From contig JAVXUO010002151.1 in NCBI GenBank assembly GCA_033065855.1, positions 111,968 through 175,967 on the forward strand: DNA of 64,000 bases. The letters run 5' to 3'. A program made the translations under genes and the position numbers. Source of the stretch: Escallonia rubra. Its lineage: Eukaryota > Streptophyta > Magnoliopsida > Escalloniales > Escalloniaceae. Within the stretch, counting starts at the first letter, position 1. Each line of letters opens with the position of its first letter. Shown here one piece after another: positions 18,172 to 44,029 of this stretch. Under the pieces are notes generated by a model. It was not told the DNA's origin and did no database searches. It saw only the letters and a program-made list of their open reading frames with translations.

Positions 18172-18176
18172 ATATA

Positions 18177-19486: not shown

Positions 19487-19784
19487 GGGAGCTGATCCGT
19501 TGAGAGCGTTAGCAAAATAGGAGAAGTTGCAAACGCGATCTGACCGTCCATCCCGAAAGATGGACGGTCCAGATCGCGCCTTTTTCAAAACCTGTCAGAC
19601 GTCCGCCATACAGTATGGCGGACGGGTTTTTTTACCAAATTGCCCCTCCGCGCCTGTCCGCTATACAGTAGCGCGGAGGGCATTAATGTCCTGATGGGAG
19701 ACAGCAAAAAGTCGTCCGCCATACAGTATGGCGGACGTCCCCTAGTCTGACACCTGTCAGGGCCTGTCCCGTCAGTTTTTTCAC
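19487..19784 (+). repeat. MULE-1 left terminal inverted repeat
   Basis: About 298 bp containing GATCTGACCGTCCATCCCG with its inverted partner and three of the GTCCGCYATAC palindromes (19601, 19657, 19714); a fourth lies just inside at 19821. In Mutator elements the TIR carries transposase binding sites and promoter; here that is inference. Confidence 0.9.
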
Positions 19785-20498
19785 TGACCCCTGCCTGACA
19801 CGAGACAGCAAAAAAGGTGTCCGCTAGACAGTATCGCGGAATAATTTCCTCACACGCCCGCGGACAGGTGCTTCCCGTATACCCCCGAGGTTCCTGATTC
19901 TCAGCTCTCTTTCCTGAATTCTCAGCTCATCCCGCAAAATTCTCCAGCTCTTCCCGCAAAATTTTCTTCTCCTTCGGATTCACCTGGCTTCCATTTCTGG
20001 CTCCCCTCAAGCTTCTTCGAGTAAAACTTGCTTCAATCTTCTTCACTCAAACAAGGTAAGTTTCTCATCTCAGATATTTTCTGGGTGGATTGACTGATAA
20101 AGTATATTTTTTATTTTGGGCAAAAAAATATAAATTTCTGATGATGTTCTAGAAATTAATTTGTTAACTTTAAAGAAGTTTATTGTAGTTAATTTTGGAT
20201 TTTTTTGAGGGCCGCTAACTTCGGCACATCTATCCTATTTAAATTCGAATTTTTTTAGATACGTTTGTTGTATTTTGGCATGATGAATTTGTCTAACGCT
20301 CTTAGTAATTGTAATTTGTTATGTTCAATAAATCTATAATTAGCAAAATGGGAGACTTTTGAGATTATGTATATAGTATATTTGTCATCTTAAATTTGTC
20401 TATTTGTCACGATAATTTTAAGGTAATATTTTCAGTTGAAAATGTCATTTGATTGTTCAGCGTAGTCTATATTTCTACATATAGGGAGCTGTTTCACA
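19785..20498 (+). promoter_or_regulatory. 5' leader of the transposase gene with a probable intron
   Basis: The interval holds a pyrimidine-rich leader (CTCAGCTCTTCCCGC repeats at 19910-19965) and a consensus 5' splice site AAG/GTAAGT at 20054-20060. An AT-rich stretch follows, with ATATAG at about 20483 as a possible acceptor before the ATG at 20499. No other gene is seen. Confidence 0.5.
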
Positions 20499-22796
20499 AT
20501 GTCTGATTTCGTGTCGAGCTCGAACACCCCCGTAGATGCTAGTGATCCGTATCTAGGACGAACCTTTCAAACATTGGAAGAAGCTGGAGAATGTTTCCGA
20601 GCGTATTCATTGAGGGTTGGATTTGGCATTAGAATAAAGACTTCAAGAACGAGCAACATAACGAGAAAGATATGCTCTCGTATGTACGAGTGCCATAGGG
20701 GCAGAAACCCAGTGCAAAATGAGACACGCGTAGGCAACGAGGACAGTGATGATGAAATAGGCTATTCGCGCAGAAGACGGGACTTCTTTGCGCGAACGAA
20801 TTGCCAGGTCAAGATGTTCGTAAGCTATAAACCCAAGCAAGATCATTGGCTTATTAGCAGCCTGGAACTGGCACACAATCACCCGTTAGTAACCCCTTCT
20901 AAGGTGAGTCAGATGCATCAACACAAGAAGATGGGAAAGGTCGCGAGGAGCCTCATTCACACAATGAGCGATGCGCGTCTAGGACCTACCGACATGATTA
21001 ATGTTCTTGCTGAACAGGCCGGGGGAATTCAGAATTTAAACTTTAACACGACAGACGTTCGCAACGCGGTCCGAACCCATAGACGAGCCGCGTATGACCT
21101 CAATGATGCTCAAGCCACAATGAGCCTATTGAAGCGGATGCAGATGGAGGACCCGCAGTTTACTTTCGATTATAAACTTGACGACGAGCATCGAGTTAGC
21201 ACAATTTTTTGGGTCGACGGTCGTTCCAGGCTTGCTTATAAGCATTTTGGGGATGTCGTGACTTTCGACACCACATACCGTACCAACAAGTACTCGATGC
21301 CGTTTGCCCCTTTCACGGGGGTCAATCATCATTATCACTCCATCCTGTTCGGGTTCGCTTTGTTAAGGGACGAGAGCGAGAGTTCTTTTGAATGGTTGTT
21401 TAGTGTGTGGCTGGAAGCCATGAACTTCAAAGCACCCAACGTTATCATCACCGATCAAGATTTGGCAATGAAGAAGGCTATTGCCACCGTCTTCCCAGAT
21501 ACTCGACACAACTTGTGCACTTGGCACATAAGCAACAAATACCCCGAACGTTTGCATCACGTGTACGCAAAGTTTCCAGAATTTAAACAGGATTTTGACA
21601 CGTGCGTTAGCAAGTCGTTAACTATTGAGGAATTTGAGGAGAGGTGGGAAAAGCTTGTTCAGGATTACTCATTGCAAGACAACGGGTGGCTCCAGCACTT
21701 GTACGAGCTCAAAGAGCAATGGATTGGCGTTTACACGAGGAGGCATTTTTCTGCGGGCATGAGAACGACGGGCAGGAGTGAATCTATGAATGCCACGTTC
21801 GATAGTTACGTGGGTACAGCTACCAATTTGAAGAGTTTCGTCACATCCGCACAGAAAGCGGTTGCGTCGTTGTTCGTGAAAGAAAGGGCTGCGGACTTTG
21901 CAACCACGTACAAACAGAGGAGAAGGTTGCTTGAGACCCCGCTGGAGCTGAACGGTGCCAAAGTCTATACGAAGGAGATCTTCTTGCTATACCAAGTAGA
22001 GCTGCAGAAATCGGGACGGTACTGTATAAACAAGGTGGCGGAGAAGTCTACGCGTGAGTACAAGGTTTATTCGCTCGTGAATGACCTCGTTCCTGAGAAG
22101 CTGCGCAGAATGTATACGGTGAGCCACGACACATTGACGGACTCGGTGACATGTGTTTGCAAGAAGTTTGAGTTCCATGGCATCCTGTGTAGACACATTC
22201 TGCGCTTTTTCACCCAGAAGAATATCAGGACAATCCCCGATAAATACGTCTTGCCACGGTGGACGAAAGGTGCAAACAGGTTGCACGCTACCATTGCTTT
22301 TCCGGAGCACCCGTATACTGACTTTGAAGAATCGGAGACGTTGCGGTATAATCATCTGGTGACGAGTTTCACCCGTTTGTCCGTAAAGGCTGCTGCTTCA
22401 ATGGTCGGTTATAAACATCTCCTCGAGGTAGCTCAGCAGCAAGAGCCCATCATCGACCAGTTGGAAGCAGCCGCTGTCACCAGTGCGATTGACACCGAGC
22501 CTACGACGGGGGTATCAGAAGATGACGAGCCGGGGGAGGAAGACGACAATGATATTTGTTTGTTGGACCCAATTATATCGCAAACGAAAGGCCGCAAGAG
22601 ATCTACGCGGATGAAAAGCTCTATTGAAACGGCAACTCAACCTAAAAAGCTGCGAAGGTGTGCATTGTGCAACAAAATGACCGACCACGACAAGCGGAAC
22701 CATTACAAGGCACTGGGGATAAGTTCGGGGGGTTTGCAAGACGGGGAAGAAGGTGACGCTGAAGACGAGGACGAACAAGCTGCAGTGGACCTTTAA
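20499..22796 (+). CDS. MULE transposase of FAR1/FHY3-like type, full length (765 aa)
   Basis: It should catalyse cut-and-paste transposition of MULE-1. Domains in order: an N-terminal FAR1-type WRKY-GCM1-like DNA-binding region (residues ~18-130; GECFRAYSLRVGFGIRIKTS ... TNCQVKMFV ... HNHPL); the MULE DDE domain with Asp in VTFDTTYRTNKYS (~257), Asp in IITDQDLAMKKAI (~318) and Glu in GRSESMNATFDSY (~427); a SWIM zinc finger CVCKKFEFHGILCRH (~550-566); and a C-terminal CALCNKMTDHDKRNH zinc-binding motif with an acidic tail. All three catalytic acids are present and the frame is open in one exon after the leader intron. The product closely resembles the decayed transposase at 41121-43403. Host FAR1 genes derive from such transposases, but TIR context and cargo argue for the element gene. 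Confidence 0.92.
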   Translation: MSDFVSSSNTPVDASDPYLGRTFQTLEEAGECFRAYSLRVGFGIRIKTSRTSNITRKICSRMYECHRGRNPVQNETRVGNEDSDDEIGYSRRRRDFFARTNCQVKMFVSYKPKQDHWLISSLELAHNHPLVTPSKVSQMHQHKKMGKVARSLIHTMSDARLGPTDMINVLAEQAGGIQNLNFNTTDVRNAVRTHRRAAYDLNDAQATMSLLKRMQMEDPQFTFDYKLDDEHRVSTIFWVDGRSRLAYKHFGDVVTFDTTYRTNKYSMPFAPFTGVNHHYHSILFGFALLRDESESSFEWLFSVWLEAMNFKAPNVIITDQDLAMKKAIATVFPDTRHNLCTWHISNKYPERLHHVYAKFPEFKQDFDTCVSKSLTIEEFEERWEKLVQDYSLQDNGWLQHLYELKEQWIGVYTRRHFSAGMRTTGRSESMNATFDSYVGTATNLKSFVTSAQKAVASLFVKERAADFATTYKQRRRLLETPLELNGAKVYTKEIFLLYQVELQKSGRYCINKVAEKSTREYKVYSLVNDLVPEKLRRMYTVSHDTLTDSVTCVCKKFEFHGILCRHILRFFTQKNIRTIPDKYVLPRWTKGANRLHATIAFPEHPYTDFEESETLRYNHLVTSFTRLSVKAAASMVGYKHLLEVAQQQEPIIDQLEAAAVTSAIDTEPTTGVSEDDEPGEEDDNDICLLDPIISQTKGRKRSTRMKSSIETATQPKKLRRCALCNKMTDHDKRNHYKALGISSGGLQDGEEGDAEDEDEQAAVDL

Positions 22797-22947
22797 TTTT
22801 TTGTACAACGTTATGACATTTGTAATAATTTTCGGAGGGATAATTTTTCCTCCGAATGCTGGAACTATTAAAAAATGGAGAGAATGAGAGGCCATCGAAT
22901 TAAATGTATAGTCTCTTATTTTTGATTTTTTTTTTTTTTTAAGTCTC

Positions 22948-23295
22948 GTCCGCTATAAAATATAGCGGACATCGTTGAAGAGAAACTTTTGGTCTGCTTT
23001 CACGTCCGCTATAAAATATAGCGGACGTCATCGAAGAAAAACTTTTGGTCTGCTTTCACGTCCGCTATACCATAGAGCGGACCTCATGAGCAGTAAAACT
23101 TTTGGTCTGCATTCACGTCCGCGATACAATATAGCGGACGTGATCGAAGAAAAACTTTTGGGCTTTCACGTCCGCTATACCATATAGCGGACCTCATGAG
23201 CAGTAAAACTTTTGGTCTTCATTTACGTCCGCTATAGAATATAGCGGACGTCATCGAAGAAAGACTTTTGGTGTCCGCCATATAAAATGGCGGAT
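22948..23295. repeat. Palindrome array of ~56 bp, seven copies, upstream of the B3 gene
   Basis: Palindromes of type GTCCGCTATAAAATATAGCGG start at 22948, 23004, 23060, 23117, 23170, 23227 and 23273. Spacers carry a (G/A)AAAACTTTTGGTCTGC core. From the third copy they alternate between GTCATCGAAGAA and CTCATGAGCAGT versions. The array lies between the 3' end of the transposase and the start of the B3 gene, so it may act as regulatory or protein-binding sequence. Confidence 0.85.
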
Positions 23296-23471
23296 AACTC
23301 TATCCTACTATATATATTAATCATATCGCTAATTCAGCTGTTATCAGTCCTATCTGAGGGCACCTCTCTCTGTCTCGAACATCTGGCTGCCGCTACTCCG
23401 TCTCCGGCACCCACATCTCCGGTGGCCCAGAACTCCGGCGTTAATCCGTCCTCCCCTCAACGCCGACCTCG

Positions 23472-23940
23472 ATGGCTTCTGGATCGGAGACCACCAACGA
23501 TTTTATTGGCAACTTGCACCTGGCAGGCAAACACTTTTTCAAAGTCATGATGCCGGGGTTTGAGAATGAACTTGTAGGCCATCCCTATTTCTCTGTATTT
23601 TCGTGTGTTAAAGGTTTGATGTTTTGGTTAAAAACTAACGTATTTTTTGTGTTGTGTTTGTTAGGACATACCGGAAGCCTTGACCAATCAATTTACAACA
23701 ATTCATGACAGTGCAAGATTATATAGCCGCAAGGGGGCATGGCAGGTTGAAATCAAGCTGAAGCCCGGCCGACCCCAAAAAAAGCAATTCGCAGAGGGTT
23801 GGAACGTCTTCGTGCGCCAGCATGGCCTCGAACTCGGGGACTTTGTAGTGTTTGAACACCTTGGGTGGTGGGATTTTCAAGTTGTAATCTTTGATCGGAG
23901 CACTTGTGAAAAAATTTCTTTCCCCCAATGTGAACCCTAA
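23472..23940 (+). CDS. B3-domain DNA-binding protein, two exons, about 125 aa
   Basis: Exon 1 is 23472-23573 and exon 2 is 23665-23940, joined by a GT...AG intron. Together they give 126 codons including the stop. The product reads KHFFKVMMPGFENEL, DIPEALTNQFTT, WQVEIKL, FAEGWNVFVRQHGLELGDF and VVFEHLGWWDFQVVIFD. This is the plant B3 fold signature (F.K...PG.....L.IP..F ... W.V.... F..GW..F.....L..GD...F). The protein is essentially one B3 domain, like short REM-type proteins, with no other domain. B3 proteins bind short DNA sites in the nucleus. Its place inside MULE-1, next to palindrome arrays, suggests it binds element DNA; that is inference. It could instead be a captured host gene. Confidence 0.8.
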
Positions 23941-24008
23941 TTTATTATTAATAAAATTATTTATGTTGTTGTTGAATCACCTCGAAATTTTTCCTCGCTT
24001 AATTGTGC

Positions 24009-24130
24009 TCAATTGTGTCGTTTGAGATTCCCTCGATATATTAAGATCGTTGATTGTGAATCGTACGTTAATTGTGTCGTTTGAGATTCCGTCGGTATAT
24101 TGAGATCGTTGATTGTTAATCATACGTTCT
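24009..24130. repeat. Two tandem ~66-bp copies
   Basis: TTGTGTCGTTTGAGATTCC(C/G)TCG(A/G)TATATT.AGATCGTTGATTGT appears twice in a row in the spacer after the B3 gene. No gene is here. Confidence 0.7.
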
Positions 24131-24280
24131 TTATTGTTTATCGATATTGAGGTTGTTGATTCTGACGCAGAAACAAGTCTTCGGGGCGCCAATTTATTAA
24201 AACAGCATTATGCTACAATGCGACTAAAACAAGCCAATTTATTAAAATTGCAGAACGCTACAACTTCTAGCTCTACTACA

Positions 24281-24693
24281 TAGTGGACATAAGGGCCTCC
24301 GCTTAGGCCGGGGTTCGGGAAGGTCGGAACTAAGTGTTTGGTTCGTGCCAACCATTTTCTGGTCCAAGTTGCAGACAACGATCTGCTGCACCACTATGAC
24401 GTAAGCTTCGTACTGTATTGTGCGGGCCCGCTGCGGAGCTGTCCGCTATACTATATAGCGGACATCTCGTACGGACAATCAAATCAACGAGACTTTGCCT
24501 CTGCGGGGATGTCCGCTATACTATATAGCGGACAGCTCCGCAGCGGGCCCGCACAATACAGTACGAAGCTTACGTCATAGTGGTGCAGCAGATGGTTGTC
24601 TGCAACTTGGACCAGAAAATGGTTGGCACGGACCAGACACTTAGTTCCGACCTTCCCGAACACCGGGCTAAGCGGAGGCCCTTATGTCCGCTA
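24281..24693. repeat. Large imperfect hairpin: 183-bp inverted arms, ~47-bp loop
   Basis: 24281-24463 and 24511-24693 are reverse complements with roughly half a dozen mismatches. Each arm ends at the loop with a perfect GTCCGCTATAC-type palindrome, and the outer tips again show CGGACATAAGG. It sits between the convergent 3' ends of the B3 gene and small gene A, so read-through from either side would give long double-stranded RNA. Confidence 0.9.
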
Positions 24694-24706
24694 TAGAACT
24701 CGATCT

Positions 24707-25138
24707 TCAGGCATCTTCATCTGAAACTGGAGCATCGGAAACATTTCCTTCTTCGAAGCTCATGTTCCAGTATACTTGTGCTTCATTGTTGTTGCCATCT
24801 TCATGTGCATCACGTGCCATACGACGTAAGTTATGCCTACTTTGACGAACTCGCATTCTATTATTTTCCTCGCGTATTCGATGAAGTGCCCTTTCAAGCT
24901 CCATGTGCGTAATTCGAGGCATGTTGATTGCCTTTTGTCGAGGTATGGGTATATTCATGCTCCGTGAATCAGCTACTAGGACCTCGTGTTCATTCATCCG
25001 ATAAGACCATTCTGCACGTAATGTATTCACATAGCTTGATGAGTAACGCAAACTTGGACGCAAAGAATAGTAAAATTCATCTTCGCCCGCCCAGTAACGA
25101 CCCATTGCTTCAAAAATATCTCGTGGAGTATATGACAT
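24707..25138 (-). CDS. Small gene A: unrecognised basic protein, 143 aa, paralogue of gene B
   Basis: Single exon starting MSYTPRDIFEAMG. The central part aligns with gene B at 25528-25962: LRAEWSYRMNEHEVL against LRREWAYRVKESEAL, then IPRQKAINMPRI against VPQRRSLTMSRR, then HRIREENNRMRVRQSRHNL against RQIRMENNRMLLRRKRFYM. An acidic C-terminus SDAPVSDEDA corresponds to DEYMSNEE. The basic helix around ENNRM..R looks amphipathic and could bind nucleic acid or dimerise. I do not recognise the family. A TATA-like TATATATAAG lies about 65 bp upstream of the ATG. Confidence 0.65.
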   Translation of the reverse strand: MSYTPRDIFEAMGRYWAGEDEFYYSLRPSLRYSSSYVNTLRAEWSYRMNEHEVLVADSRSMNIPIPRQKAINMPRITHMELERALHRIREENNRMRVRQSRHNLRRMARDAHEDGNNNEAQVYWNMSFEEGNVSDAPVSDEDA

Positions 25139-25527
25139 TTCCAGAGTTGTTATGAAATTGGGAGTATATCACTCTATGCCCATTGCAATGAGCAATGCAT
25201 GTACTTATATATACTTTGAAACGGGACCACTTTATGAAAGAGCTACAGTTTCAACTTTATGAGATGTGACCCAACGTTGGCAATAGACTAGAGACATGTC
25301 TTGTCACCAAAGAGAATTGTCTTGTCAGCAAAGACTTGTCAACTTTATGACACGGGCATGCTGTTGTCTCCAACTATTGTCATCTAACTACGGTCCAGCG
25401 ACTTGTCTTGTCACAAGAGATAGACAGACTATTGTGTAGCTATCACACCAATATATTGTGTATGGGTATGTGGGCTTATTTATATATGTTAGCCATGCTC
25501 ATCGCTTTAGAACCAAAACAAAGTTAA
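25139..25527. promoter_or_regulatory. Divergent promoter between small genes A and B, rich in TTGTC
   Basis: 389 bp between two head-to-head start codons. TATA-like boxes face outward: TATATATAAG on minus at 25203-25212, and TTATTTATATATG on plus at 25477-25489 (about 40 bp before the ATG). Between them TTGTC occurs about eight times, twice as CTTGTCTTGTCAC-like doublets (around 25292 and 25402). These may be binding sites for a shared regulator. Confidence 0.5.
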
Positions 25528-25962
25528 ATGGCAGGAGTTCCTGGGAGTTCTAGTCTGCGGGGACGTGAGACTGTGTGGTTGTTGTGTGAAAGGAACGACG
25601 ACTACAAAGAAGTGAAGTACACGGATCCCAGAGAGTATTATTGCGGTTTACGGAGAGAATGGGCATATCGAGTTAAGGAATCAGAAGCGCTACACCAGGA
25701 TCTCACCACGCTGAGTGCACCTGTGCCGCAACGTCGTTCACTTACTATGTCGCGGCGTAATGTTAAGCAGTGTAAGAAAGCTGTGCGCCAAATTCGTATG
25801 GAGAATAACCGGATGTTGCTGCGTAGAAAACGATTTTATATGCTTCAACTTGCGGAAGAAATGGCCGAGGCTAGTGGGAGGCAGCTCACATCAAACGAGA
25901 GAAACAATATTTTAACCAATGATCAGTACTTATCTGATGAGTATATGTCAAATGAAGAGTGA
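25528..25962 (+). CDS. Small gene B: unrecognised basic protein, 144 aa, paralogue of gene A
   Basis: Single exon MAGVPGSSSLRGRETVW... with REYYCGLRREWAYRVKESEAL, PVPQRRSLTMSRRN, AVRQIRMENNRMLLRRKRF and a C-terminal acidic DEYMSNEE. Similarity to gene A runs over about 110 residues at roughly 30-35% identity by eye, with conserved EW.YR..E.E.L and IR.ENNRM..R blocks. Conservation of two copies as open frames in opposite orientation argues that they are real genes. Function unknown. It ends just before the 82-bp array. Confidence 0.65.
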   Translation: MAGVPGSSSLRGRETVWLLCERNDDYKEVKYTDPREYYCGLRREWAYRVKESEALHQDLTTLSAPVPQRRSLTMSRRNVKQCKKAVRQIRMENNRMLLRRKRFYMLQLAEEMAEASGRQLTSNERNNILTNDQYLSDEYMSNEE

Positions 25963-26049
25963 TATATATATATCTCTTTCTACTGCATGCTAGGATTTCA
26001 TTCCAACCGGCACTCATCCACATGTCATTCTAATTGTGGTGTATCCCGT

Positions 26050-27200
26050 CTTCTGGGGCCCTATTTACGTCCGCGAAACTATATCGCGGACAGCCAAGCA
26101 GAATGTACCCTCCCTCCCCAGCACTTCGTTTTTTTTGGGGCCCTATTTACGTCCGCGAAACTATATCGCGGACAGCCAAGCAGAATGTACCCTCCCTTCC
26201 CAGCACTTAGTTTTTTTTGGGGCCTTATTTACGTCCGCGAAACTATATCGCGGACAGCCAAGCAGAATGTACCCTCCCTCCCCAGCACTTCGTTTTTTTT
26301 GGGGCCCTATTTACGTCCGCGAAACTATATCGCGGACAGCCAAGCAGAATGTACCCTCCCTTCCCAGCACTTAGTTTTTTTTGGGGCCTTATTTACGTCC
26401 GCGAAACTATATCGCGGACAGCCAAGCAGAATGTACCCTCCCTCCCCAGCACTTAGTTTTTTTTGGGGCCCTATTTACGTCCGCGAAACTATATCGCGGA
26501 CAGCCAAGCAGAATGTACCCTCCCTTCCCAGCACTTAGTTTTTTTTGGGGCCTTATTTACGTCCGCGAAACTATATCGCGGACAGCCAAGCAGAATGTAC
26601 CCTCCCTCCCCAGCACTTAGTTTTTTTTGGGGCCCTATTTACGTCCGCGAAACTATATCGCGGACAGCCAAGCAGAATGTACCCTCCCTTCCCAGCACTT
26701 ATTTTTTTTTGGGCCCTTATTTCGGCCCGCGAAACTATATCGCGGACGGCCAAGCAGAATGTACCCTCCCTCCCCCGCCCTTAGTTTCCTTTGGGGCCCT
26801 ATTTACGTCCGAGAAACTATATCGCGGACAGCCAAGCAGAATGTACCCTCCCTTCCCAGCACTTAGTTTTTTTTGGGGCCTTATTTACGTCCGCGAAACT
26901 ATATCGCGGACAGCCAAGCAGAATGTACCCTCCCTCCCCAGCACTTAGTTTTTTTTGTTCCCTATTTACGTCCGCGAAACTATATCGCGGACAGCCAAGC
27001 AGAATGTACCCTCCCTTCCCAGCACTTAGTTTTTTTTGGGGCCTTATTTACGTCCGCGAAACTATATCGCGGACAGCCAAGCAGAATGTACCCTCCCTCC
27101 CCAGCACTTAGTTTTTTTGGGGCCCTATTTACGTCCGCGAAACTATATCGCGGACAGCCAAGCAGAATGTACTTTCCACAGCACTTAGTTTTTTTTCGGC
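26050..27200. repeat. 82-bp tandem array, 14 copies, each with a palindrome; 164-bp higher-order pattern
   Basis: GTCCGCGAAACTATATCGCGG-type palindromes begin at 26069, 26151, 26233, 26315, 26397, 26479, 26561, 26643, 26725, 26807, 26889, 26970, 27052 and 27133. Spacers read CAGCCAAGCAGAATGTACCC then TCCC(T/C)(T/C)CCCAGCACTTAG and TTTTTTTTGGGGCC(C/T)TATTTAC. Units alternate between a CTCC...GGGGCCCTAT form and a TTCC...GGGGCCTTAT form, so the true repeat is a 164-bp dimer. It is not coding, although frames run through it. Confidence 0.95.
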
Positions 27201-27422
27201 CATATCTAGTCTCCCCTGCTGAAAGCAAATCACACAGAACAAATAAAACACTCAGCTGAACAACACAACCATATCACTGAATCAAATCAATCGCATTCAA
27301 CAACGATCACATCTCAAGTCAACACAGATGAAATCGTCAATCGCATTCAAACGATAAGAGTCAAGAAGTTTAAGGACAAATAGCCAAGTCAATATAGCGG
27401 ACGTTATTATACGCAAACATTG

Positions 27423-30400
27423 TCAATTACACGGATTTACAATATATCTAATATGTCTAGGCCGGCCATTGATAATTTGCCAAGCCATCCTATACCTAAA
27501 GCAGTCTATGCAGTCTTGTGTCCAGACGGTCTTCTTGAGGCTCTCCGACCGACAGATGTAATCCATGTACATGCAGAGGTAGACGCCGCAGTCCGAGGTA
27601 TTAAGTTGCTTGGGCCTAGTCCTCTTCAATCGGAAAACAACCTCCCTATCGCCCACTGCCCTCCCTCGGTTCTCTCGAGAACGCTCTCTATTGACCATGG
27701 CAGCAAATAGATTCTGCGAGTAAGAGGATAAGCATTAAACATTAAACATAGCAAACATAATACGATTAATCAGTTCTACATTATGCAAGTTACAATAAGA
27801 AGTAAACAGGCTCTTACCATTGGATTCAACATCCCTAAGCCTACGTACATGTCAATCACACCAATCGCGTCCGTATCATCGTAGAGACTGTCAAGGACTG
27901 ATACGGTATTCGTTACCGGTTCATAGCAAATCAAGAACCAGTGGGCATTAATTATAGCAGGGAGTAGAAACACATCCGCCACACTTGCGCGCTCTGGACT
28001 CGGCCGACCAATATATGCGAGTAGGTTAGCGGACGGTCTCCACTTCATCTCGGCCTTCGCCTTTCTCGCCTGCTTCCTCGCCTTGTCCCACTCGTTAAAG
28101 TCTTGTACTAGCATATTGTGAAAGTAAGCGTCGAGAATAAAAATGCGCGGACCGTAGTTAGGCTGCTCCCGACTCCTTTGCCGCAGAATTTGCACGTAGT
28201 GCGAGATGACGAAGTTGTCTAACCACATCCCCGGCGCCAGCGTGGACAGTTCTTTCCACGAGACACTGTAATCCAAGCCCTGCGGGTTTTTCACGGCATA
28301 CGACTCTTCGTCTGGGGGGGCCCGCTAAAATAACGGTGATGGATTAGGTGGTGTTTATGCGGCTTCAGGGGCCTGGCTGGATGCCCTTTCGGATATTGCC
28401 CTCGGGGGTCGACCGGTTGCTCTTGCCCTCCGCCGGGGGGCAAGAGCAACGGAAGAAATTGGCCTCCAACCAACGGATCGGCCGGCTGATAGTCGCCTTC
28501 GGCGGCCCCGGCCGGCTGATAATCGCCTTCGGGGGCGCCTGCCGGCTGATATTGCTCGCCGGCCATTTCTTCCTCCCGCTGATATTGCCCTTCGGTGCCG
28601 CCAATCGGTCCCGCCCACGGGACAATGGGCAGTGCCTCGTTAAAACCGTATTGCCACTCTTGCGTGACTTGACTCTGAGAGAGGGGTTGGGGTTCCGGGA
28701 ACGAATCGAAGGTCGGGCCGCTGTAATCGGCCCACGACGCTTGAGCATGTCCCATCCCCGGTACAGAGGGACCACCAACTCCCTGGCTCACCCCTGAAGC
28801 TTGCCCGGAGGGATCAACGTTATACGGGCTGGCGCCCGTATAACCCATTCCCGGGCTGTCGACCGAAGACTGTCCCGATGCTTGCCGCACAAAATTCCCG
28901 CAGCCTATAGCCAGTGCAGCCGCCTGTTGGCGAAGATCCTCGCCCATTGCGCTCATCAGATCCTTCCGCTCACTCAACTTCTGGAAGAATGCAAGCGAGG
29001 CATTAACCTACATCCAAAGAGATAACAAATAAGTAACTTTAATCAGTTCTGATATATTGAAGACAAGTTCGGCAACTTACGAGATTGTATGCCATCTGCT
29101 CGTCGATCTGACCCCTAGGCGCATACCTCGCCCCGCGTTCAAAGTTGACTGGGGCTACTCTCCTCCGCGTGATGCGGGAGTACCACTCATCATACTCCGC
29201 GATGCTGATAACGGGGTCCGGCTCCGAGACGATGGCCGCCAGTGTGTCCTGCCAAGAAGTCCAGAGCTCTAGTTCGGCCGCGCACAATTCTTGCGCATTG
29301 GCCTTGCCAAACCGCCCGACATCCGGTGGGTCCCTGTTAACCCTCATATCTGGGGCACCGGCGGGCAAACCCTGCTCCAACTCAAAATGGCGCATTGCTC
29401 GGTCTGGCAGCTGCCACTCTGCGACCTCGAAGTGGATGAGGGGTGTGCGCTGCAACCCGGATAGCGTGAAGACGAACGACTCTTCAACCCGTCGCGCCAA
29501 ACCTATGTACGGTGCCCAACGCAATTGGCCCGGAGATAGGCGGTCGAACTCCCCTCGATAGAACGTGATGTTGTGATGGGGATCGGCTCTCCTGCGGTAG
29601 TGGCTATTATTCCGGCTGTACTCCCAAGCACGCAACCGAGGCCACACTCTATCGGTTCCATCCCTACGCGTCGGTGAACCGGGAGCAAGGTGTTCATAAG
29701 ACCACACCTGAAAAAATGGACAAATTATATTTATATCGTCGATTCAACAAAAGCGAAAACAAAAAAAAACAATAACGAAGACAGGATTTATATGATATAC
29801 CTGCAATAGCGAGAGACATGCACATATGGCTTTGGAGTCGGGCCTCGTTGCCTTGTGCAATGCTCGGTACAGATACGAAAGAACCGCTGCACCCCATGCA
29901 TAATCTCCAACCTCAGCCAGGTTACTCAACAACGGTAAATATTTCACGCTGGCCGTGTTCTTCGACGTCGTTGGGAATAAAATTGCCCCCATCACCCACC
30001 AGAGGAAGGCTTTTGTGTAAAGCACAAGCTCATGGCCCGTATAGTTTTCCGGCAATACCCCGTACGTATCTACCAACCATTTCAACTTTATACCACCACT
30101 GCTAAATTTATCCTGGGGTATCGAATGGAGGAAGTCCCTAGCGGTTCTCGTCTTCGTTGCTTCTGACGGAGGAGCAATTACCGGCAGCCCCGTCACCGGC
30201 AACCCTAAGATGAACCCTACATCTTCTAGCGTAATTGCCAGCTCTCCGAGCGGGAAGTGAAACGTATTCGTTTCACTTCTCCACCTCTCAACAAGGGCAC
30301 CTATCAAGGCCCGGTCAAGCTGTTGAAATATCTGCCCATGCGTGAAAATCCCAAACCCAATTCCACGCAGTATCCTCTTCTGGGCGGTGTTCAGTTTCCA

Positions 30401-30621
30401 CGATACTATATCGCGAGATACTTCTACGGTGTTGACAAGTTCTCTTTCCTACGAATTAATAAATACAATTTAAGCGCTCTCAACGGCATATACAACGTTC
30501 GTAAGAATAAGAAAAGTTTATAAATAATGTATCTTACTCCACCATCCCATATGAGCGTACTGATATGGTTAGCTTGGTCGTATAACACGGATGGGTCTTC
30601 AGGTCCAGGGTTAAATTCCAT
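27423..30621 (-). CDS. PMD-Ulp1 protein: plant mobile domain fused to a C48 SUMO-type cysteine protease
   Basis: Exons that can be read are 30538-30621, 29801-30448, 29081-29707, 27818-29007 and 27423-27713, all with GT/AG borders; the product is about 945 aa. The N-terminus MEFNPGPEDPSVLYDQ and the PMD core ALIGALVERWRSETNTFHFP ... ITLEDVGFILGLPV are in exons 1-2. A PMD-associated region PLIHFEVAEWQLPDR is in exon 3. A Gln/Gly/Pro-rich linker follows (EGDYQPAGA repeats). The Ulp1 domain has His in NAHWFLICY, Asp in VLDSLYDD, Gln in RPKQLNTSDCGVY and the catalytic Cys there, so the active site is complete. Near 28320 the frame changes at a G/C run; a TTTTAG acceptor there allows an extra short intron, otherwise it is a one-base indel. 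The gene reads inward from the right TIR. Confidence 0.82.
27714..27817 (-). other. Last intron of the PMD-Ulp1 gene
   Basis: GTAAGAG at the 5' side (27817 downward) and TCGCAG at the 3' side (27714) bound 104 bp. It separates the His/Asp part of the protease from the Gln/Cys part, in phase 0. A matching intron position exists in MULE-2 (about 40046-40131). Confidence 0.7.
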
Positions 30622-31210
30622 TTTTTGCAACTGAAATTATGGAAAAACCTTCTCAGTTTGGATTTTACGTTTTGGATTTTCATAATAAGAAGCGAAACTA
30701 CGACGCTAGCACATGCATAATACATATAACGAGTTAGGACATGAATGATACGTACAATGTTAGCATATGTACTCATATGTATAAATATATATACTATTAC
30801 GGAATCGGATTTTGCAAACGCTTGCACAAGAACAAGAACATACATATATAAAACGCAATATTCATCATAACCGAATATTACAGACAAAAAATCGTAGATT
30901 TTGTGAACTTACGTGATCGATTTAGGGTATATTGAACACCGGAATGTCGCCGATATGCTTGCCAACGCCGGTGGTAAAGATTGGATATTGCGTAGAAAGT
31001 GTATATTTTGTGAGTAGAAAGAGTGGAGAAGAGTGGTGCCGTAGTTACTGCCGTAGTTACTGCCGTTTGCAAGTATACTGAACGTCCGCAATACAGTACC
31101 GCGGATGGCTACTACATCCGCGATACAATATCCCGGATGGCTAAACGTCCGCTAAACTGTATAGCGGACACTGTTGACGTGACAGAAAGGACAAGATAAC
31201 CGTCATTGCC

Positions 31211-31506
31211 GAAAAAACTGACGGGACAGGCCCTGACAGGTGTCAGACTAGGGGACGTCCGCCATACTGTATGGCGGACGACTTTTTGCTGTCTCCCATC
31301 AGGACATTAATGCCCTCCGCGCTACTGTATAGCGGACAGGCGCGGAGGGGCAATTTGGTAAAAAAACCCGTCCGCCATACTGTATGGCGGACGTCTGACA
31401 GGTTTTGAAAAAGGCGCGATCTGGACCGTCCATCTTTCGGGATGGACGGTCAGATCGCGTTTGCAACTTCTCCTATTTTGCTAACGCTCTCAACGGATCA
31501 GCTCCC
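31211..31506 (-). repeat. MULE-1 right terminal inverted repeat
   Basis: Reverse complement of 19487-19784. It carries palindromes at 31257, about 31317 and 31370; three further palindromes lie just inside at 31083, 31115 and 31146. Confidence 0.9.
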
Positions 31507-31608: not shown

Positions 31609-31610
<2 letters not shown>

Positions 31611-32127
31611 GAGCCGATCCACACCCACCGGTGGAGAAATAACAATTTCTCCACCATAAATCTAGCCGTCCAGATGTAGTCGTGGATGGCCCAGATCTGT
31701 TTTTTTTTTTTTTAAAGTTGCAACCGCCGCTCTTTCAAGCGGTTGCAAAATGGACAAAAATGCCCCGGAAAGCTGAAAAAACCACAACCGCAAGAAAGAC
31801 TTGCGGTTGGGGGCCCACAAATTTCCTCCCAACCGCTACAAAGTGTAGCAATTGGGAGCACACCCAACCGCTACACTTTGTTGCGGTTGGTGATGATTGC
31901 AAATAGTTTTTTTAAGCATTCTTTTGGCCCTATTTCGTGAGACCAAAGCACAAGCCGCCGCCACTAAGTGTAGCGGTTGGCATCTTGACACATTTTTTTT
32001 TGCAGCCATAAACTTTGTCATAACAAGACAAAGTGGCCCCACAATAGTCCCTAACCTCTACTCTTTGTAGCGGTTGGCATCCATCCAAGTTTTTTTAATG
32101 CAGAACTTTCGTGTGACACAAGGACAT
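31609..32127 (+). repeat. MULE-2 left terminal inverted repeat (continues at 35673 after an insertion)
   Basis: It matches the reverse complement of the right end from 44598 down to about 44060, including CTCCACCATAAATCTAGCCG, poly-T, and the AACCGC palindromes at about 31721, 31791, 31826, 31866, 31952 and 32045. The homology is interrupted at 32127 by the solo LTR and resumes at 35673 with GACATGGGGACAAAGTGG. Confidence 0.88.
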
Positions 32128-35100
32128 TGTCACGACCCAAACCCACGGGTAAGCCCATGTGCTAGGCACGTGACCGGCCGCAGACCCATCCAGACAACTA
32201 ATTAGGGTTCTGCCTGGCCTTATTTAAGCACGTACACAATTTGAAAACCATACATTAAACCAACACCATAATATGAATTTCTAAAGATACCCTTACAGCT
32301 CTTTCCAAAATTATCTCAACTAAATTACTCCATAAAGACTAATAGCATTTATTTAAGAGGAAACCTCCTGGGATTCAGCTACGAACAATTCAAGTAATAA
32401 ACTGGCAGTTCTACAAATTTCTCAAGGATTAAATCAACATCCTAACGAACATCTCTTGCAGCTTCATTTTTATTACTCTCATAGTACTGAGGCTCATCTA
32501 GGTGTTCACCTGAAAACATTTATAAAAAGGGGTGAACTGGGGGCCCAGTAAATACACATGCCATATCCCTAAAATAAATTTGAGGGTTTCGACTATACCA
32601 TGGTTTTCCTTTTTTTTTTACAATAAAATTTCAATGTTACCAAAATAAATACGCTCAACATATCCACGTATATATATGTACTTGCATCAAAAGATTCTCG
32701 AATTAGAATGGGATCAACAAAGAGTTTTCACCAAGGATTATCACAATTAATCATAACATGTATACTGCGGTCAGCGTATGGTCCCACTGACTAGGACCCA
32801 AAATCCCTCCTCCACCCAGGATAACAAAGTGTGGACGCAAGGGCGAACCACGGTGCAACAGTACTGTGCGTCAACGTATGGTCCCGTTGACCAGGACCCG
32901 GAATCCACTTTCCCCCGTGGATATGGGGCGCAGTAACACAGTCAATTATCATTTCGTTCCACAGAAATCGATCATGATTCAAATACTCATACAACAATCC
33001 ATGGCATTTCTTTTCAATTTATGTTTCAAATAAAATACTTTAGAAATAAACATATGCAGTATAGAACTTTAAACTTTAAATGATCAAATCATAAATACAT
33101 ATCATAGGTTTTGCAAATAAATATACAGAGGAACATGACAGGGGTACTTACCTCGCTCAAAATCTGTTTCTGATATTTGCTCAAATGCCGGCCCTAGCTC
33201 TTGACTATCAAAACCTAAATAACAAATCATACAAATGTCATTTATTGACGCTCGGGCACGCTTAGGTATTATGTTTCTTTTAGATGAGTAAACTTTACCC
33301 AACCATCCCCCGACTTCTGTATAATTACCTATTAGTACTTTGTCTGAATCTATTCAGAAGAGGTCCTTGGAACTAATTTAATAACTATCGTGACAATGAA
33401 GCGTTACGCTAAAACCGCTCGGGCGCTACGCCGCTAACATAGTAAACGACCTTAAAATATTTCGAAACTTTAGAAACTACCTTATCTTAGCTACATAAGA
33501 TTATTGCAGGATTTTCAGAATTTAATAACTTAGTTTACTATTCTATAATACACTAACGTCTCTATCACAAATAAAATTAGTTAACATGCTTCCCGAGCTC
33601 CGAAAAATCTAAAAGTTTTACTGTGTGTCGGTCTTGAAAAATAAACCTAAGTTACTTCTTTGAGTTTTGCCCAAAAGAGTTTCTAGATATATTTTAAAAT
33701 TTCGAAAAGAATCTGCTGGAATACGATACCTTTTTAGTGACACTTTTGAGTTAAACTTTAGAAACAAAACTTTTCCCTCTCTTGCTACAATATCATCTTC
33801 CTCATGCAACTCAGTCGTCCTCTTTTACCCAAAATCACCCCACCTCTTCATTTTCTCTCTCACTTACCACCTACTTTAAATATGGTTATACACATGTTAC
33901 ATATACACCTACTCACACCATTCATTCATAACCCATCCGTATATAAGACATTCTCTCAACTCATGGACAACACCCAGATACATGCTTACAACCTTTTCAC
34001 ATACATGACATGAATCTATGCATATGTATCCACAACATTTTCATAACTTACACAACCCTTCAAAGGCAATAGCTTCCTTTCACTTGTGTAACCCATTTAT
34101 GTGCAACCCATCAGTCTACTCCTTCCCCAAACACTGTTCACGCAGCCTTGGCTCCCTTCCTCCTTACAGACATACACTCCCAAACACATATGTACAAACC
34201 CATTGCAATAACTCCTCAACTCCATTACAGCTACTGCCGCTTGTTTCCTCTTGCCAAACTCTTTTTCACAGCTCACTTCTCACACCAAACACAAGTAAGC
34301 ACTGCCTATACTCGCTGCCACAACCCAATTCGCAAACCCATTTCTCTCACCATTTCACTCGTACACCAATCCTTCACAGTTTCTTGCCCTTGCCTTTTTA
34401 TACACAAACAATATTCGCTCTCTATTCAAACCATAACTTCTTCAAAACCTTCATCTTCTTGCCATTCTTTCATGGGCACAGCGTCACAGCCATACATAAG
34501 TTCCCCCCTAAGACACTTACCCACTACTCCCCACAATACAGTATAGGTGCATCTCATGTTTTTGCTTCATATTCCCTTCGTCTCTTTGACATACATAGCG
34601 CACCACATCTTTCACGCACGCACAAACTCACGCACCACCACCTGCATGTACCCACTTCTTGTTCCCTCCTCCAACCAATGCTTTACCCATTACTCATTCC
34701 CCTTCCTTTCATGGCAGCCACCATGGCTGCCTTCGTGCTCCCTTTAGTAACCTATGGTTGCGCCGGAATATATATACTAACGGCAACCTTAATCTCACGG
34801 CCCTTAACCCACCAAAACAATTCCGTATAGGTGCAAAGTCACAGCCACCATGGCTGTGACTTGCTTAACCGTCCATACAGTGGCTTCCGTGGCACCACAT
34901 ACACAGCACTATGAATCCAAAACCTCACAACCCAATACCCACGATGCACAAAAACACACAACATACGCTAATGCCTGCAAACATTAAGCCCTCTCGCACA
35001 CGTACAGTAGTAAACACACCTCACAAAGCCACAAGGCTTCTCTTCACGCATACTCAAGCGGCAGATCCATAACGTAGAGACAATACCACTTATATGATTT

Positions 35101-35672
35101 ATACGCATTAGAATTATCATAATAAGGTGAAGAGGCTTACCGAAATCTGTCGAAACCCTTCTTTTCTCTCTTTCTCTGCCGCTGCTCCACGCCCTTCTCC
35201 TTCAGCCGCTCTCCGAAATCTTGTTAGGAGAAATTAGGGTCGGCTGCTAAAGAATATCATGCTTATATATAACCCAAATCCCTAATTGGGCAAAGACAAG
35301 AAAAACCCTCTCACCCTTTGGTCGCTAAAACTTCTTAACCGAATTTAATAACTTAAAAATGGTCCAACAATAAATCTTTATGATAATTTATGTGTTAAGA
35401 AAATTATCAACGAGTTATTACGCTATCATGTTTGTCAAAACGTCGCTAATATTAAAAGCATCGATATTTTAAATAACTTGTCGCTAATATACATCAGTCA
35501 ATATCCATAATATCTGCTATTATTAAATTATAATTTATGATTCTATAATTGTCACTAAAGATCATCATATAATGCTCCCCAAATTCGTCGCTAAAAACTC
35601 AAAAGGACATTACTCTTAAAAACTGTCGCTAAAGTAATAATAACCGGTTAAGCCTAGGTTCGGGGTATTACA
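32128..35672 (-). mobile_element. Solo LTR, 3545 bp, Ty3/gypsy chromovirus (Tekay-like), in the MULE-2 left TIR
   Basis: One end is TGTCACGACCC and the other GGGGTATTACA; on the minus strand this gives the TGTAATACCCCG start and GGGTCGTGACA end common in Tekay/Del-type LTRs. It is flanked by a perfect 5-bp target duplication GACAT (32123-32127 and 35673-35677). No internal retroviral part is present. A TATATATAAG box near 35270 faces left. Several long frames in 33.8-34.9 kb are compositional and not genes. Confidence 0.85.
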
Positions 35673-35677
35673 GACAT

Positions 35678-37543
35678 GGGGACAAAGTGGCCCCACCTAG
35701 CATAGTGTGGAGGTTGGTATCACAAGCCAAATAGTCCCCAACTTTTTCTGGCCTGCCCGAAATGTTGATTTGCAGCCTTACTTTGATCAAATTATTGTCC
35801 ACTTAACTGACACACACTCACGGGTCTTCTTTCTTCTTTCTCCTTCACTTTTCTCTCTTTATAATCTGTTCTCCCCAACTCTTTCTGGACAGAACTCTCT
35901 CTTTCACTCTTCATCATCTTTCCCAACTCTTTCTTCCAACTTCTTGATACTCTAAATCTTACCTACATAATTTCCACAATAACATAAATAAAAAAATTCT
36001 ATGCTAGAAGATCGGTGGATAACCGCTAGAAGATTAGTGGAATTTTTTTAAAAATATATCAAGTTTAAAGCAAGTAAGTATTTCGAATTTTCTTATAATT
36101 CAATGTTAATTTCAAATTGTTCTTACCATAATTGTTCTTACCAGTGGATTGTTTAAATTGTGTTATGCTTAAATTGTTCTTACATAGTCTAAAATTCGTG
36201 TTTTTTAGAGTTTGAAATTAGGGATTGAACTAGCGTTTAGGTTATGAAATTAGAGGTTTACTTGATATTAGAAATTAGGGTTATTTTATTTTTTCAAGAT
36301 TGGGGTTTTATTAGGGCTCCAACATTATGGGTTTTTTATGGATTCAAAATTGGCGGTTTTTTAAGACGTCAAAATTAGGGTTTTTAGGGCTTCAAAATTG
36401 GGAGTTTTTTATGAATTCAAGATGGGCGGTTTTTTAGGGCGTCAAAATTAGAGTTTTTTTTATAGTTCTCAAAATTAGAGTTTATTAGCGAATATTCATT
36501 CGAAGTCCAAAAATAGTCATTGTAGACTCAAATCGAAGAGAACAAAAATACAAATTGAATGAAACAAAAATCAGATCAATCGGAGATCGGATGAGTGAGA
36601 TATGAGTTGGGTGAAAATTTTAGATAAAAACTTAATAGCACGAAGATCGACAAAACTTTTTAAAAGAAATAGTCACCCAAAAGTGACACGTGGCGTGTCC
36701 TTTCTCTATAAATTCTGAAACCAATCTATCACGAAGGACAACTTATAAATTTAAGATAAAAAAGGACAAATGACTACTGTCCTTTTCTTTAGAGAAAAGG
36801 CGGCCACTGTTCTTAAAAAAAAAACCGACAGCTCGACTTGACTGTTCGTAAGAATTATATATATATATATATATATATAAAAGTCAAAGACCGATTGAAG
36901 AGAGACGTGAGACTAAAATTTTTGAAAGTAACTTTTTGACCCCGAACAAAGAACGGAAAGGCACAAAGTTATGGTGAACAACTTTTTACGATAAAACGAA
37001 CACATAATTTTATAAATCACATTAGAACTGTCTTTAACGCAACTTACAAGACAGTAAAACAAGATCATTGATAACGTTACAAAAAGCGTGATGATCAACA
37101 ATATGCTCAGAAGCAAATTCAATTTTGAAATCAAACGAAGATGCAAAGATTCTCGTGCATGAAATGAAAAGACGGCGTAAAAACCCCTTATTTCGATAAA
37201 ATGAATATCATGTCGTAAATCTCCTATTTATCTTAGATCGTTACTTCAAAGTAACGAACATCATGTCAAAAATTCAAAAATATAATAATTTTTAATTGTT
37301 CTTTACACAAGTACCCAAAAACCCGGGGTATTACATTTATGGATTCCAAAATAGCGGTTTTTTAGTGCGTCAAAATTAGGATTCTTTATGATTTTCAAAA
37401 TTGGATTTTATTAGGGCATCGAAATTGGCGATTTATTCGGGCTTCAAAATTAGGATTTTAGGATTACGTGTTCTCATTTAGTTTTGGAATGTAAATATTA
37501 TGGACGCTAAGTTGGTTTACGATTATATTTTGTTCTTAGAGAT
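35678..37543 (+). other. MULE-2 leader region of the PMD-Ulp1 gene
   Basis: AT-rich with degenerate ~60-70-bp reiterations of (T)CAAAATTAGGGTTTTTTA...GGGCTTCAAAATTGGG (36290-36485, and 37336-37480 after an insertion). It is interrupted at 36486-37335. It probably corresponds to promoter and leader of the PMD gene; no coding sequence is seen. Confidence 0.5.
36486..37335 (-). mobile_element. Probable second solo LTR, 850 bp
   Basis: The right end ACCCGGGGTATTACA is like the end of the 3.5-kb solo LTR. Both sides carry TTTAT (36481-36485 and 37336-37340), consistent with a 5-bp target duplication, and the leader repeats continue across. The left end lacks a canonical terminal dinucleotide, so the assignment is less sure. 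Confidence 0.55.
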
Positions 37544-40417: not shown

Positions 40418-41012
40418 CGTGCCTAAGATGCAATGAGCAAAACAAAGTGAAAAAAATTTACATAATTTTTCGGAAGTTAAGAATTGGGCGCTAAAGTGTG
40501 TGCGAATAGGCGCGTCGTAGGAAAACCGAAAAAACAATTTGTCTCGATTTTTGCCAAAATTCATAGAAATGGGCTAACTAGCATGCCTAAGGTGCAATGA
40601 GCAAAAAAAAGTGACAAAACAAATTACAACATTTTTCGCAAGCTATGAATTGGGCGCTAAAGTGTGCGCGAATAGACGCGTCATAGGAGAATCAAAAAAA
40701 TAATTTGTCTCGTTTTTCACCGAAATTCATATAAATGGGCTAACTAACGTGCCTAAGGTGCAATGAGCAAAAAAAAAGTGACAAAAAAAATTATAATATT
40801 TTTCACAAGTTATGAATTGGGCGCTAAAGTGTGCGCAAATAGGCCTTTCATAGGAAAATCAAAAAAATAATTTGTCTCATTTTTCGCCGAAATTCATAGA
40901 AATGGGCTAACTAGCATGCCTAAAGTGCAATGAGCAAAAAAAATGACAAAAAATTACAAAAATTTTCGCAAGCTATGAATTGGGCGCTAAAGTGTGCACG
41001 AATAGGCCCTTC
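40418..41012. repeat. Tandem repeat of ~166 bp, 3.6 copies
   Basis: Units start with (C/A)(G/A)TGCCTAAGGTGCAATGAGC at 40418, 40582, 40749 and 40915 and include GAATTGGGCGCTAAAGTGTG and AATTTGTCTCG. It begins directly after the PMD-Ulp1 stop codon and lies between the convergent ends of the two MULE-2 genes. No palindromes of the AACCGC type were seen inside. Confidence 0.85.
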
Positions 41013-41120
41013 CAAAAATATCAAGATTCCACAAACCAATTCACAAATTAAAGATTCCACAAACCAAATCACAAATTTAAACATTATAAAAGTTCAATTT
41101 AAACAACTGAAACATTAACC

Positions 41121-43403: not shown

Positions 43404-43829
43404 ATTTATATTGAAATCTAAAAAATAAAAATTATATCATTCTCCACAAGTCATAGAATTAAATGAATTTTTTTGTAAAGAAACATAAATAAAATCGAAT
43501 GAAATGAAATGAAAAAGGCAAAACTTACAATGTAGTATTGTTGCTTTCAATTGCCTCCTCCTTCAAGATAATTGCTCCAATATTAGCTTTTTTGATAATA
43601 TCACCAAAGTTGGATAAACTGATTTCAAGATAGTGCAAGCAAACACTAAAAGTCTGTGATGTTGGAAGAATTTTTGAGTGTTTGTTTGATGAAAAAATGG
43701 GAGTTTAGGGGTTATAGAGGATGAAGAAATGGTTAGGGTTCGATAGTGAGTAAGTGGGAAGAAAAAGAAAGAGAGAGATATATAGCCAGAAAGAAAAAGA
43801 CTGATCCTGAAGTAAAGGGAAACCCCCAA
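43404..43829 (-). other. Leader region of the MULE-2 transposase
   Basis: AT-rich upstream segment between the transposase start and the palindrome-bearing subterminal region, presumably promoter and leader. I see no coding sequence in it. Confidence 0.5.
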
Positions 43830-44029
43830 ACCGCTACTCTTTGTAGCGGTTGGGGCATTAATTGCACCAGCTCGGGGTAAGTGGGGGCAGCTGGGGGTTT
43901 TATTAGGGTTTTTAATTGCATTTGTGGGGTAGCTGGGGGTTTATTTATGGTAGGTGGGGCAATAATTTCTAGGGCTCATATCCTTGTGTCACACGAAACA
44001 ACTGAAAAAAAAAATATTTGATGATGGCA

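Follow-up and report, generated by a model that had tools for sequence, protein, structure and literature searches.

A modular Mutator-like element of Escallonia rubra with arrays of a 23-bp palindrome as putative binding sites of an element-encoded protein

The question raised by a stretch of Escallonia rubra DNA (NCBI GenBank assembly GCA_033065855.1, contig JAVXUO010002151.1, positions 111,968 to 175,967 of the forward strand; this whole stretch of 64,000 nucleotides is called the window) is what holds together a transposon in which the transposase is accompanied by several other genes. Positions 19487-31506 of the window are a Mutator-like element (MULE) of 12,020 bp, in which the transposase (+ strand) is followed by a two-exon B3 gene (+), a divergent pair of small genes, A (-) and B (+), and a gene (-) that joins a plant mobile domain (PMD) to an Ulp1-type peptidase. 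A previous sequence-only reading described a recently active 12-kb MULE with a transposase, B3, two small paralogues and PMD-Ulp1, and all of these parts were located; the same reading missed the palindromes of the element and the sister element that adjoins it. The explanation favoured in this study, which we regard as evenly balanced between right and wrong, is that this is a cassette-built, TA-targeting MULE whose palindromes (GTCCGC-N11-GCGGAC) are putative binding sites of an element-encoded dimer, most likely the transposase. The parts of the element are as follows.

19487..19782, + strand: left terminal inverted repeat (TIR), starting with GGGAGCTGATCC; three palindromes, with a fourth just inside at 19820
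20499..22796, + strand: transposase, 765 aa, with FAR1, MULE and SWIM domains
22947..23303, no strand: array of seven palindromes between the transposase 3' end and the B3 gene
23472..23573, + strand: B3 exon 1, joined to exon 2 by GT..AG
23665..23940, + strand: B3 exon 2; Pfam B3 match in the open reading frame 23680-23940
24280..24694, no strand: inverted repeat of 187 bp (95%), with two palindromes near the loop and an A/B inversion breakpoint beside it
24707..25138, - strand: gene A, 143 aa, paralogue of B, no domain above cut-off
25139..25527, no strand: 389 bp between the divergent genes A and B, probably their shared promoter region
25528..25962, + strand: gene B, 144 aa, no known domain
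26054..27196, no strand: tandem array of 14 units of 82 bp, with 12 exact palindromes
27423..28294, - strand: Ulp1-type (Peptidase_C48) exons of PMD-Ulp1, matches 27776-28294 and 27423-27698
28291..28977, - strand: fast-evolving linker piece of PMD-Ulp1, in a frame that differs here from that of the next piece
29039..30307, - strand: plant mobile domain exons of PMD-Ulp1, PMD matches 29744-30307 and 29039-29707
31211..31506, - strand: right TIR, ending with GGATCAGCTCCC; three palindromes, with two more just inside

The core TCCGC-N11-GCGGA was found 30 times inside the element: three times in each TIR, three times just inside the TIRs, seven times before B3, twice in the hairpin and 12 times in the 14-unit array. 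None was found in 100 dinucleotide-Markov sequences of the element's length. Spacing was counted in 18 sequences totalling 139.8 kb (the window's copy and 17 stretches fetched from the genome, five of them without a transposase; such stretches carry L numbers), where the core occurred 318 times with the 11-bp spacer and at most four times with any other spacing from 0 to 40. Because ten fixed letters were demanded by the search, the constancy of those letters is not evidence. Among the letters that were not demanded, the flanking G was present in 304 and the flanking C in 290 of the 318 sites, and the inner A, A, T and T in 314, 318, 316 and 303, with the other inner positions varying without pairing. 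In 17 transposase-bearing copies there were 326, 70 and 41 sites with 0, 1 and 2 mismatches, and four rearranged controls gave 0, 0-5 and 34-56 in the same copies. All 326 palindromes were outside the coding matches (83.5 kb) and in the remaining 78.2 kb. Genome-wide (566,129,122 bases in 3,222 contigs, as for all genome-wide searches here), the strict form was found at 18,172 sites and a reversed control at 0, and the short copies L026-L028 have seven palindromes each.

When the window's copy was compared with L024, coding bins were mostly 98-100% identical, with gene A down to 95%; bins in the array before B3 were at 72% and 54%, the hairpin bin was at 68% and the 82-bp array was at roughly 74-89%, depending on how the units were paired. 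The palindrome is a family-specific motif in fast-evolving non-coding arrays, a property known from the targets of VANC. It was also seen in L038 (G000:C9:42400-46300), where two short palindrome-bearing elements adjoin in TA repeats and have the end variants GGGAGTTGATCC and TGGAGCTGATCC, so the palindrome is used by more ends than those with the exact 12-mer.

A second form of the palindrome was found next door.

31609..44598, no strand: sister MULE, with the end GGGAGCCGATCC and with transposase, PMD and Ulp1 pieces

The sister adjoins the first element, is flanked by TA and is more decayed, with TIRs of 519-528 bp (91%) and a transposase that is split over frames; no match to B3 or A/B was found in it. 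AACCGC-N11-GCGGTT is present in the sister in eight exact copies, of which the TIRs hold six and the stretch just inside the right TIR holds two, and CCGC-N11-GCGG in nine, with two or fewer at other spacings from 5 to 19. The outer bases are therefore AA..TT in the sister and GT..AC in the first element, and the only BLAST similarity between the left ends of the two was one 19-bp match (E 0.65). Genome-wide, the sister's form was found 3,980 times compared with 7 for its control, though some of these sites may belong to other families. A shared architecture with changed outer bases and unalignable ends is the strongest sign that something recognises the palindrome, and the sequences suggest that this recognition shifted between lineages. 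At 40410-41009, where the Ulp1 and transposase ends of the sister converge, there is also a 166-bp tandem array; the CCGC-N11-GCGG palindrome was not found in it.

The first element is a potentially autonomous, recently active and recently amplified MULE. Its TIR arms (19487-19782 and 31211-31506) are 296 nt each and 100% complementary without gaps, which bears out the identity claimed for them before. The flanks are TA repeats with a 9-bp match across them, and because the element ends in TA repeats this match is uninformative taken alone. A 9-bp target duplication was exact in 13 of 17 copies and telling only in L009, which lies in complex sequence; the flanks of 16 of the 17 were judged TA-rich by eye. 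The terminal 12-mer was found 1,725 and 1,795 times genome-wide, compared with 9 and 2 for its reversed control. The element has the MULE-type DDE transposase and the TIRs with a target duplication in the 8-11 bp class by which MULEs are known, and it is inserted in (TA)n like the MULEs that target TA microsatellites. It is not a Pack-MULE (non-autonomous, with host gene fragments and no transposase), as its transposase is open and its cargo genes are whole and recurrent.

The transposase has a Pfam MULE match at 2.8e-32. Across 20 aligned sequences including the window's, D257, D321 and E428 never vary and D319 is nearly invariant. We take these three invariant residues to be the catalytic acids of the family, in agreement with the earlier description of an open 765-aa transposase with three such acids. 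The two joined B3 exons encode 125 aa, and all 125 codons have a counterpart in 10 of the 14 copies with B3 that were compared. The only B3 relative found was an Escallonia herrerae protein (77%), which is annotated as TF-B3, lacks the final stretch of exon 1, and may be a misannotated transposon-encoded protein. Genes A and B are divergently oriented and 29% identical. Gene A could not be placed in a known family, since Pfam gave nothing above cut-off (best FAM167 at 0.028), and a shared-word search of 5.8 billion proteins with gene A gave eight candidates, none of which reached E 0.001. The structure model of its product is poor (predicted local distance difference test, pLDDT, 61.6) and has a long predicted helix that is basic by sequence. 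Searches of solved structures with B3, the first PMD exon and the transposase gave no match, and the first PMD exon matched DUF7745 (2.6e-4) and DUF1985 (0.023) weakly, both below cut-off. It had been stated that all genes are open or nearly so, and this is true in general but not of PMD-Ulp1 in the window's copy, where the linker and the first Ulp1 piece are in different frames, with a C-run at the junction (by eye). The same two matches are in one frame in L009, L012, L015 and L021, and, according to the available part of PMC10759652, the assembly from which this DNA probably derives was built on Oxford Nanopore data, so the frame break is possibly an assembly error.

Recurrence was followed in a first set of 17 stretches, 16 with ends of both orientations at their borders, in a second set of two and in a third set of five taken from unpaired ends; six of about 40 unpaired TIR ends were sampled. 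The 18 transposase-bearing copies are the window's own and the fetched stretches with a transposase match, some of which stop before the element end. Outside these 18 are L018, L023 and L026-L028 (no transposase match), L034 and L035 (no protein match), a copy on C116 that carries A, B and B3 as read in pieces (L036, L037, L039), and a transposase piece in L002; L020 was left out of the 17-copy palindrome count and of the pairwise counts of nonsynonymous and synonymous divergence (dN and dS) given below. PMD or Ulp1 pieces are in 17 of the 18 copies (absent from L011) and B3 is in 15 (absent from L010, L011 and L014). A and B are together in five (the window, L016+L017, L024+L025, L030 and L031), A alone is in L033, which looks like an internal deletion, and 12 copies have neither. 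Among the best 150 of 1,355 candidates in a protein search of the genome, gene A matches were 96-100% identical and four had an inner stop; for gene B the best 150 of 1,355 were 95-100% identical and five had an inner stop. These are the best-scoring copies, so open frames are favoured in that sample.

Twenty A loci, hand-picked down the list of the best 150, were fetched. All 20 have B divergent from A at 367-397 bp and B3 on the A side (partial in L045, L048 and L058), and 19 have at least one palindrome within the 2.6 kb. Five of the 150 A matches are on contigs up to C125, where TIR places were listed, and all five are less than 7 kb from a TIR end. The expectation that the extra genes recur together thus holds for B3 and A/B at the 20 A loci, all of which have B and at least part of B3, but not across the family, where A/B is in 6 of 18 copies; copies consistently without B3 and A/B, which would have made these genes private captures, were in part what was found (A/B in 6 of 18, B3 in 15 of 18). 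Private capture of B3 and A/B was rejected because the genes recur across copies. They are family genes, yet some members are without them: the family is modular, with cassettes present or absent copy by copy.

The modules also differ in history. Between the window and L015, dS was 0.17 for the transposase, 0.00 for B3, 0.22 and 0.41 for the PMD exons, 0.60 for the linker, and 0.55 and 0.47 for the Ulp1 exons; a B3 value of 0 beside 0.55 for the first Ulp1 exon in the same pair argues against a single co-adapted set. L010 is the sister of L015, with dS of 0.07 or less in every other gene, yet it is without B3, as is L014 (93-95% to L015). L015 and L010 are collinear either side of the B3 block, which is bounded by palindrome arrays, and the breakpoints of the missing block in L010 and L014 are at arrays. 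Either one branch acquired B3 by exchange or the other lost it; the near-identity of the L015 and window B3 genes points to exchange. The A/B block is reversed in L016 (87.5%) and L031 (84.5%), where both sides align forward, with one inversion end at the hairpin and the other ahead of the 82-bp array. A second B3 lineage was observed in the older members L016, L029, L031 and L032, with about 42-54% identity over the larger of the matched parts, and the L016 gene gave a dN/dS of 0.93 against the window's. The proposal of a coordinated system rather than random capture therefore stands insofar as the extra genes recur together, but the modules differ in history and selection on B3 was not significant.

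The cassettes (transposase; B3; A/B pair; PMD-Ulp1) are set apart by the arrays of 23-bp palindromes. In the model that we favour, a dimer of an element protein would bind the palindrome, with the N-terminal FAR1 zinc finger of the transposase as the likely contact. Binding at the element ends would serve mobilisation, and at the internal arrays the same or an allied protein would control element promoters or chromatin: the array upstream of B3 may control B3, and the array between the convergent genes may control chromatin or transcription ends. B3, A and B would then be accessory regulators. As the sister has no match to B3 or A/B, the reader is more likely the transposase or PMD-Ulp1, both of which the sister does have. 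The transposase is favoured because palindromes are at the ends of the transposase-bearing copies examined and of the short L026-L028, and because the FAR1 region is the part least conserved between the two elements (38% identity over residues 3-111, compared with 61% over 153-332 and 43% over 331-741), although only slightly below the C-terminal part.

Several points weigh against this model. The C-terminal part of the sister transposase is nearly as diverged as the FAR1 region, and PMD-Ulp1 is common to both palindrome dialects too, so the transposase is a choice and not a result. The internal arrays are dispensable for transposition as such. No palindrome was found in L004-L006, of the eight 3-kb stretches L001-L008 at exact 12-mer ends, and in 10 kb each L034 had one and L035 none. 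The known FHY3/FAR1 motif CACGCGC, as given in the available part of PMC13306707, is absent from the palindrome. Purifying selection on B3 was not significant in the variants of 22 recent copies, and a host protein could be the binder. A wider form of the model, which we put forward only tentatively, is a palindromic address code of a MULE clan, in which each lineage would write its own xxCCGC-N11-GCGGxx at its ends and in arrays, to be read by its own DNA-binding protein; the arrays would be anti-silencing or promoter-control platforms as well as joints where B3 and A/B are gained, lost, inverted and swapped, and the system would be VANC-like but of an origin separate from that of VANC.

The main alternative, somewhat unlikely but serious, is that the arrays are targeted by PMD-Ulp1, which would be a sequence-specific anti-silencing factor comparable to VANC, either of independent origin or distantly related to it. 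As far as the available parts of PMC5735166 and PMC10398659 go, VANC-target motifs are family-specific and sit in non-coding, fast-changing tandem repeats, three features that are shared here, and some VANC genes carry Ulp1 (available part of PMC13317346). Evolution is faster in the linker and Ulp1 than in the transposase, as it is in VANC compared with VANA, the first PMD exon has its weak match to DUF1985, a VANC domain, and anti-silencing by PMD-Ulp1 accounts equally well for the fast turnover of the arrays. However, neither DUF1985 nor DUF287 was found at cut-off, the VANC motifs are quoted as 8-9 bp, the string 'palindrom-' is in neither main text (PMC5735166, PMC10398659), and palindromes are also at the ends of copies without PMD-Ulp1 (L011, L026-L028).

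It is also unlikely, though slightly more so, that B3 and A/B are functionless passengers that entered a successful element in a single capture and multiplied along with it, so that the palindromes matter and the cargo does not. Selection was estimated by Nei-Gojobori counts between pairs of copies, which are not independent and for which p is uncorrected. For A, 9 of 15 pairs showed a low dN/dS at p<0.05 and 6 were not significant; for B the figures were 3 and 7 of 10. In A, the window and L031 gave a dN/dS of 0.27 (p 8e-4), and the window and L030 differ by 4 synonymous and 0 non-synonymous changes (p 2e-3). In B, the ratio was 0.27 with L016 (p 5e-4) and 0.54 with L031 (p 0.08); L016 and L031 are decayed, which raises their values. 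When single-base variants of 22 other recent copies were pooled (codons with multiple changes, 6 in A, 1 in B and 12 in B3, were skipped), the ratio of nonsynonymous to synonymous polymorphism (pN/pS) was 0.21 for A (p 1e-4), a low value favoured by sampling because the ranking of the loci followed their score for the A protein, 0.45 for B (p 0.01) and 0.63 for B3 (p 0.19). With three older copies added these became 0.34, 0.50 and 0.64, that for B3 still not significant. Selection as the reason for open B3 frames was not significant either: the simulated chance of no stop at the window-L016 difference was about 0.06. The passenger explanation thus gains from the B3 variants, whose departure from neutrality is not significant, and from the near-identity of the 150 best A and B copies, which is also expected from a recent burst. 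The low ratios in A and B speak against it and are signs of purifying selection on these two genes, and B3 is common to two lineages at dS 0 though their transposases differ at dS 0.17.

A quite improbable explanation does without an element-encoded reader and has the palindromes recognised by a host factor or active by way of DNA structure (hairpins, recombination, small interfering RNA). The palindromes and the 187-bp hairpin can extrude or yield small interfering RNA, and breakpoints cluster at the arrays. However, hairpin formation alone demands neither a constant spacer of 11 bp nor inner positions that vary unpaired, and the presence of two dialects in a pair of related elements of the same genome is easier to reconcile with a reader encoded by the elements than with a single host factor. 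That the B3 or A/B proteins bind the palindromes is very improbable, since, although B3 is a DNA-binding domain encoded between two arrays and the product of gene A has its long predicted helix, basic by sequence, in a low-confidence model, the palindromes are kept in copies without B3 (L010, L011, L014), in copies without A/B and in the sister.

TA targeting by MULEs is already known, as are Ulp1 and PMD in MULEs, and the earlier statement to the latter effect agrees with the available parts of PMC13317346 and PMC6446971; PMD is listed for several MULE groups in PMC6446971, antisense in one row. The element resembles MuTAnT (PMC4486113), SaTar/Micron (PMC5907723) and Ac-mMITE (PMC8449440) in its MULE transposase or MULE-like ends, in (TA)n insertion and in many short non-autonomous copies, but B3, an A/B pair and palindrome arrays are not reported in the available parts of these papers, according to which AutoMuTAnT has a single transposase open reading frame, unlike the multi-gene element here. 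Arabidopsis VANDALs with VANC are alike as MULEs with further genes beside the transposase, and in a family-specific motif, non-coding tandem arrays and fast turnover; as described in the available parts of PMC5735166 and PMC10398659, they have degenerate TIRs and a VANC with DUF1985/DUF287. The element here differs in PMD-Ulp1, in a 23-bp palindrome that is also within the TIRs, and in B3 and A/B; its TIRs are long and identical, DUF1985 was matched only at E 0.023 and DUF287 not at all, so it is not a VANDAL. Kaonashi (KIU) and other Ulp1-carrying MULEs share the Ulp1 gene, represented here by the Peptidase_C48 matches, but KIU elements are non-TIR, unlike this long-TIR element, and the available part of PMC13317346 describes no B3 or A/B pair in them. 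Mosquito Muta1 is alike in subterminal repeats within long MULE TIRs but, in the available part of PMC5225508, has 12-bp tandem repeats and one 504-aa transposase. No B3-carrying MULE, A/B pair or palindrome arrays or code of such kind was found in the literature, a weak negative as few subscription papers were covered.

Further traces of the family were seen elsewhere in the window. Positions 1-516 are the right end of a third member, to the left of which L029 has a diverged transposase (83%), B3 (53%) and split PMD-Ulp1 pieces. A further PMD-like stretch (38% and 29% identity) is at 58599-60123, far from any transposase match in the window.

The element is an open candidate autonomous element for TA-microsatellite targeting, whose known partners are mostly defective or transposase-only as far as the available sources go. 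Should an element protein be the reader of the palindrome, this genome would offer a ready experiment, with thousands of sites, neighbouring elements that use different dialects, and copies with and without each accessory gene. If true, the explanation proposed here would test whether VANC-type sequence-specific self-recognition arose more than once among MULEs and would show how transposons gain and trade regulatory genes.

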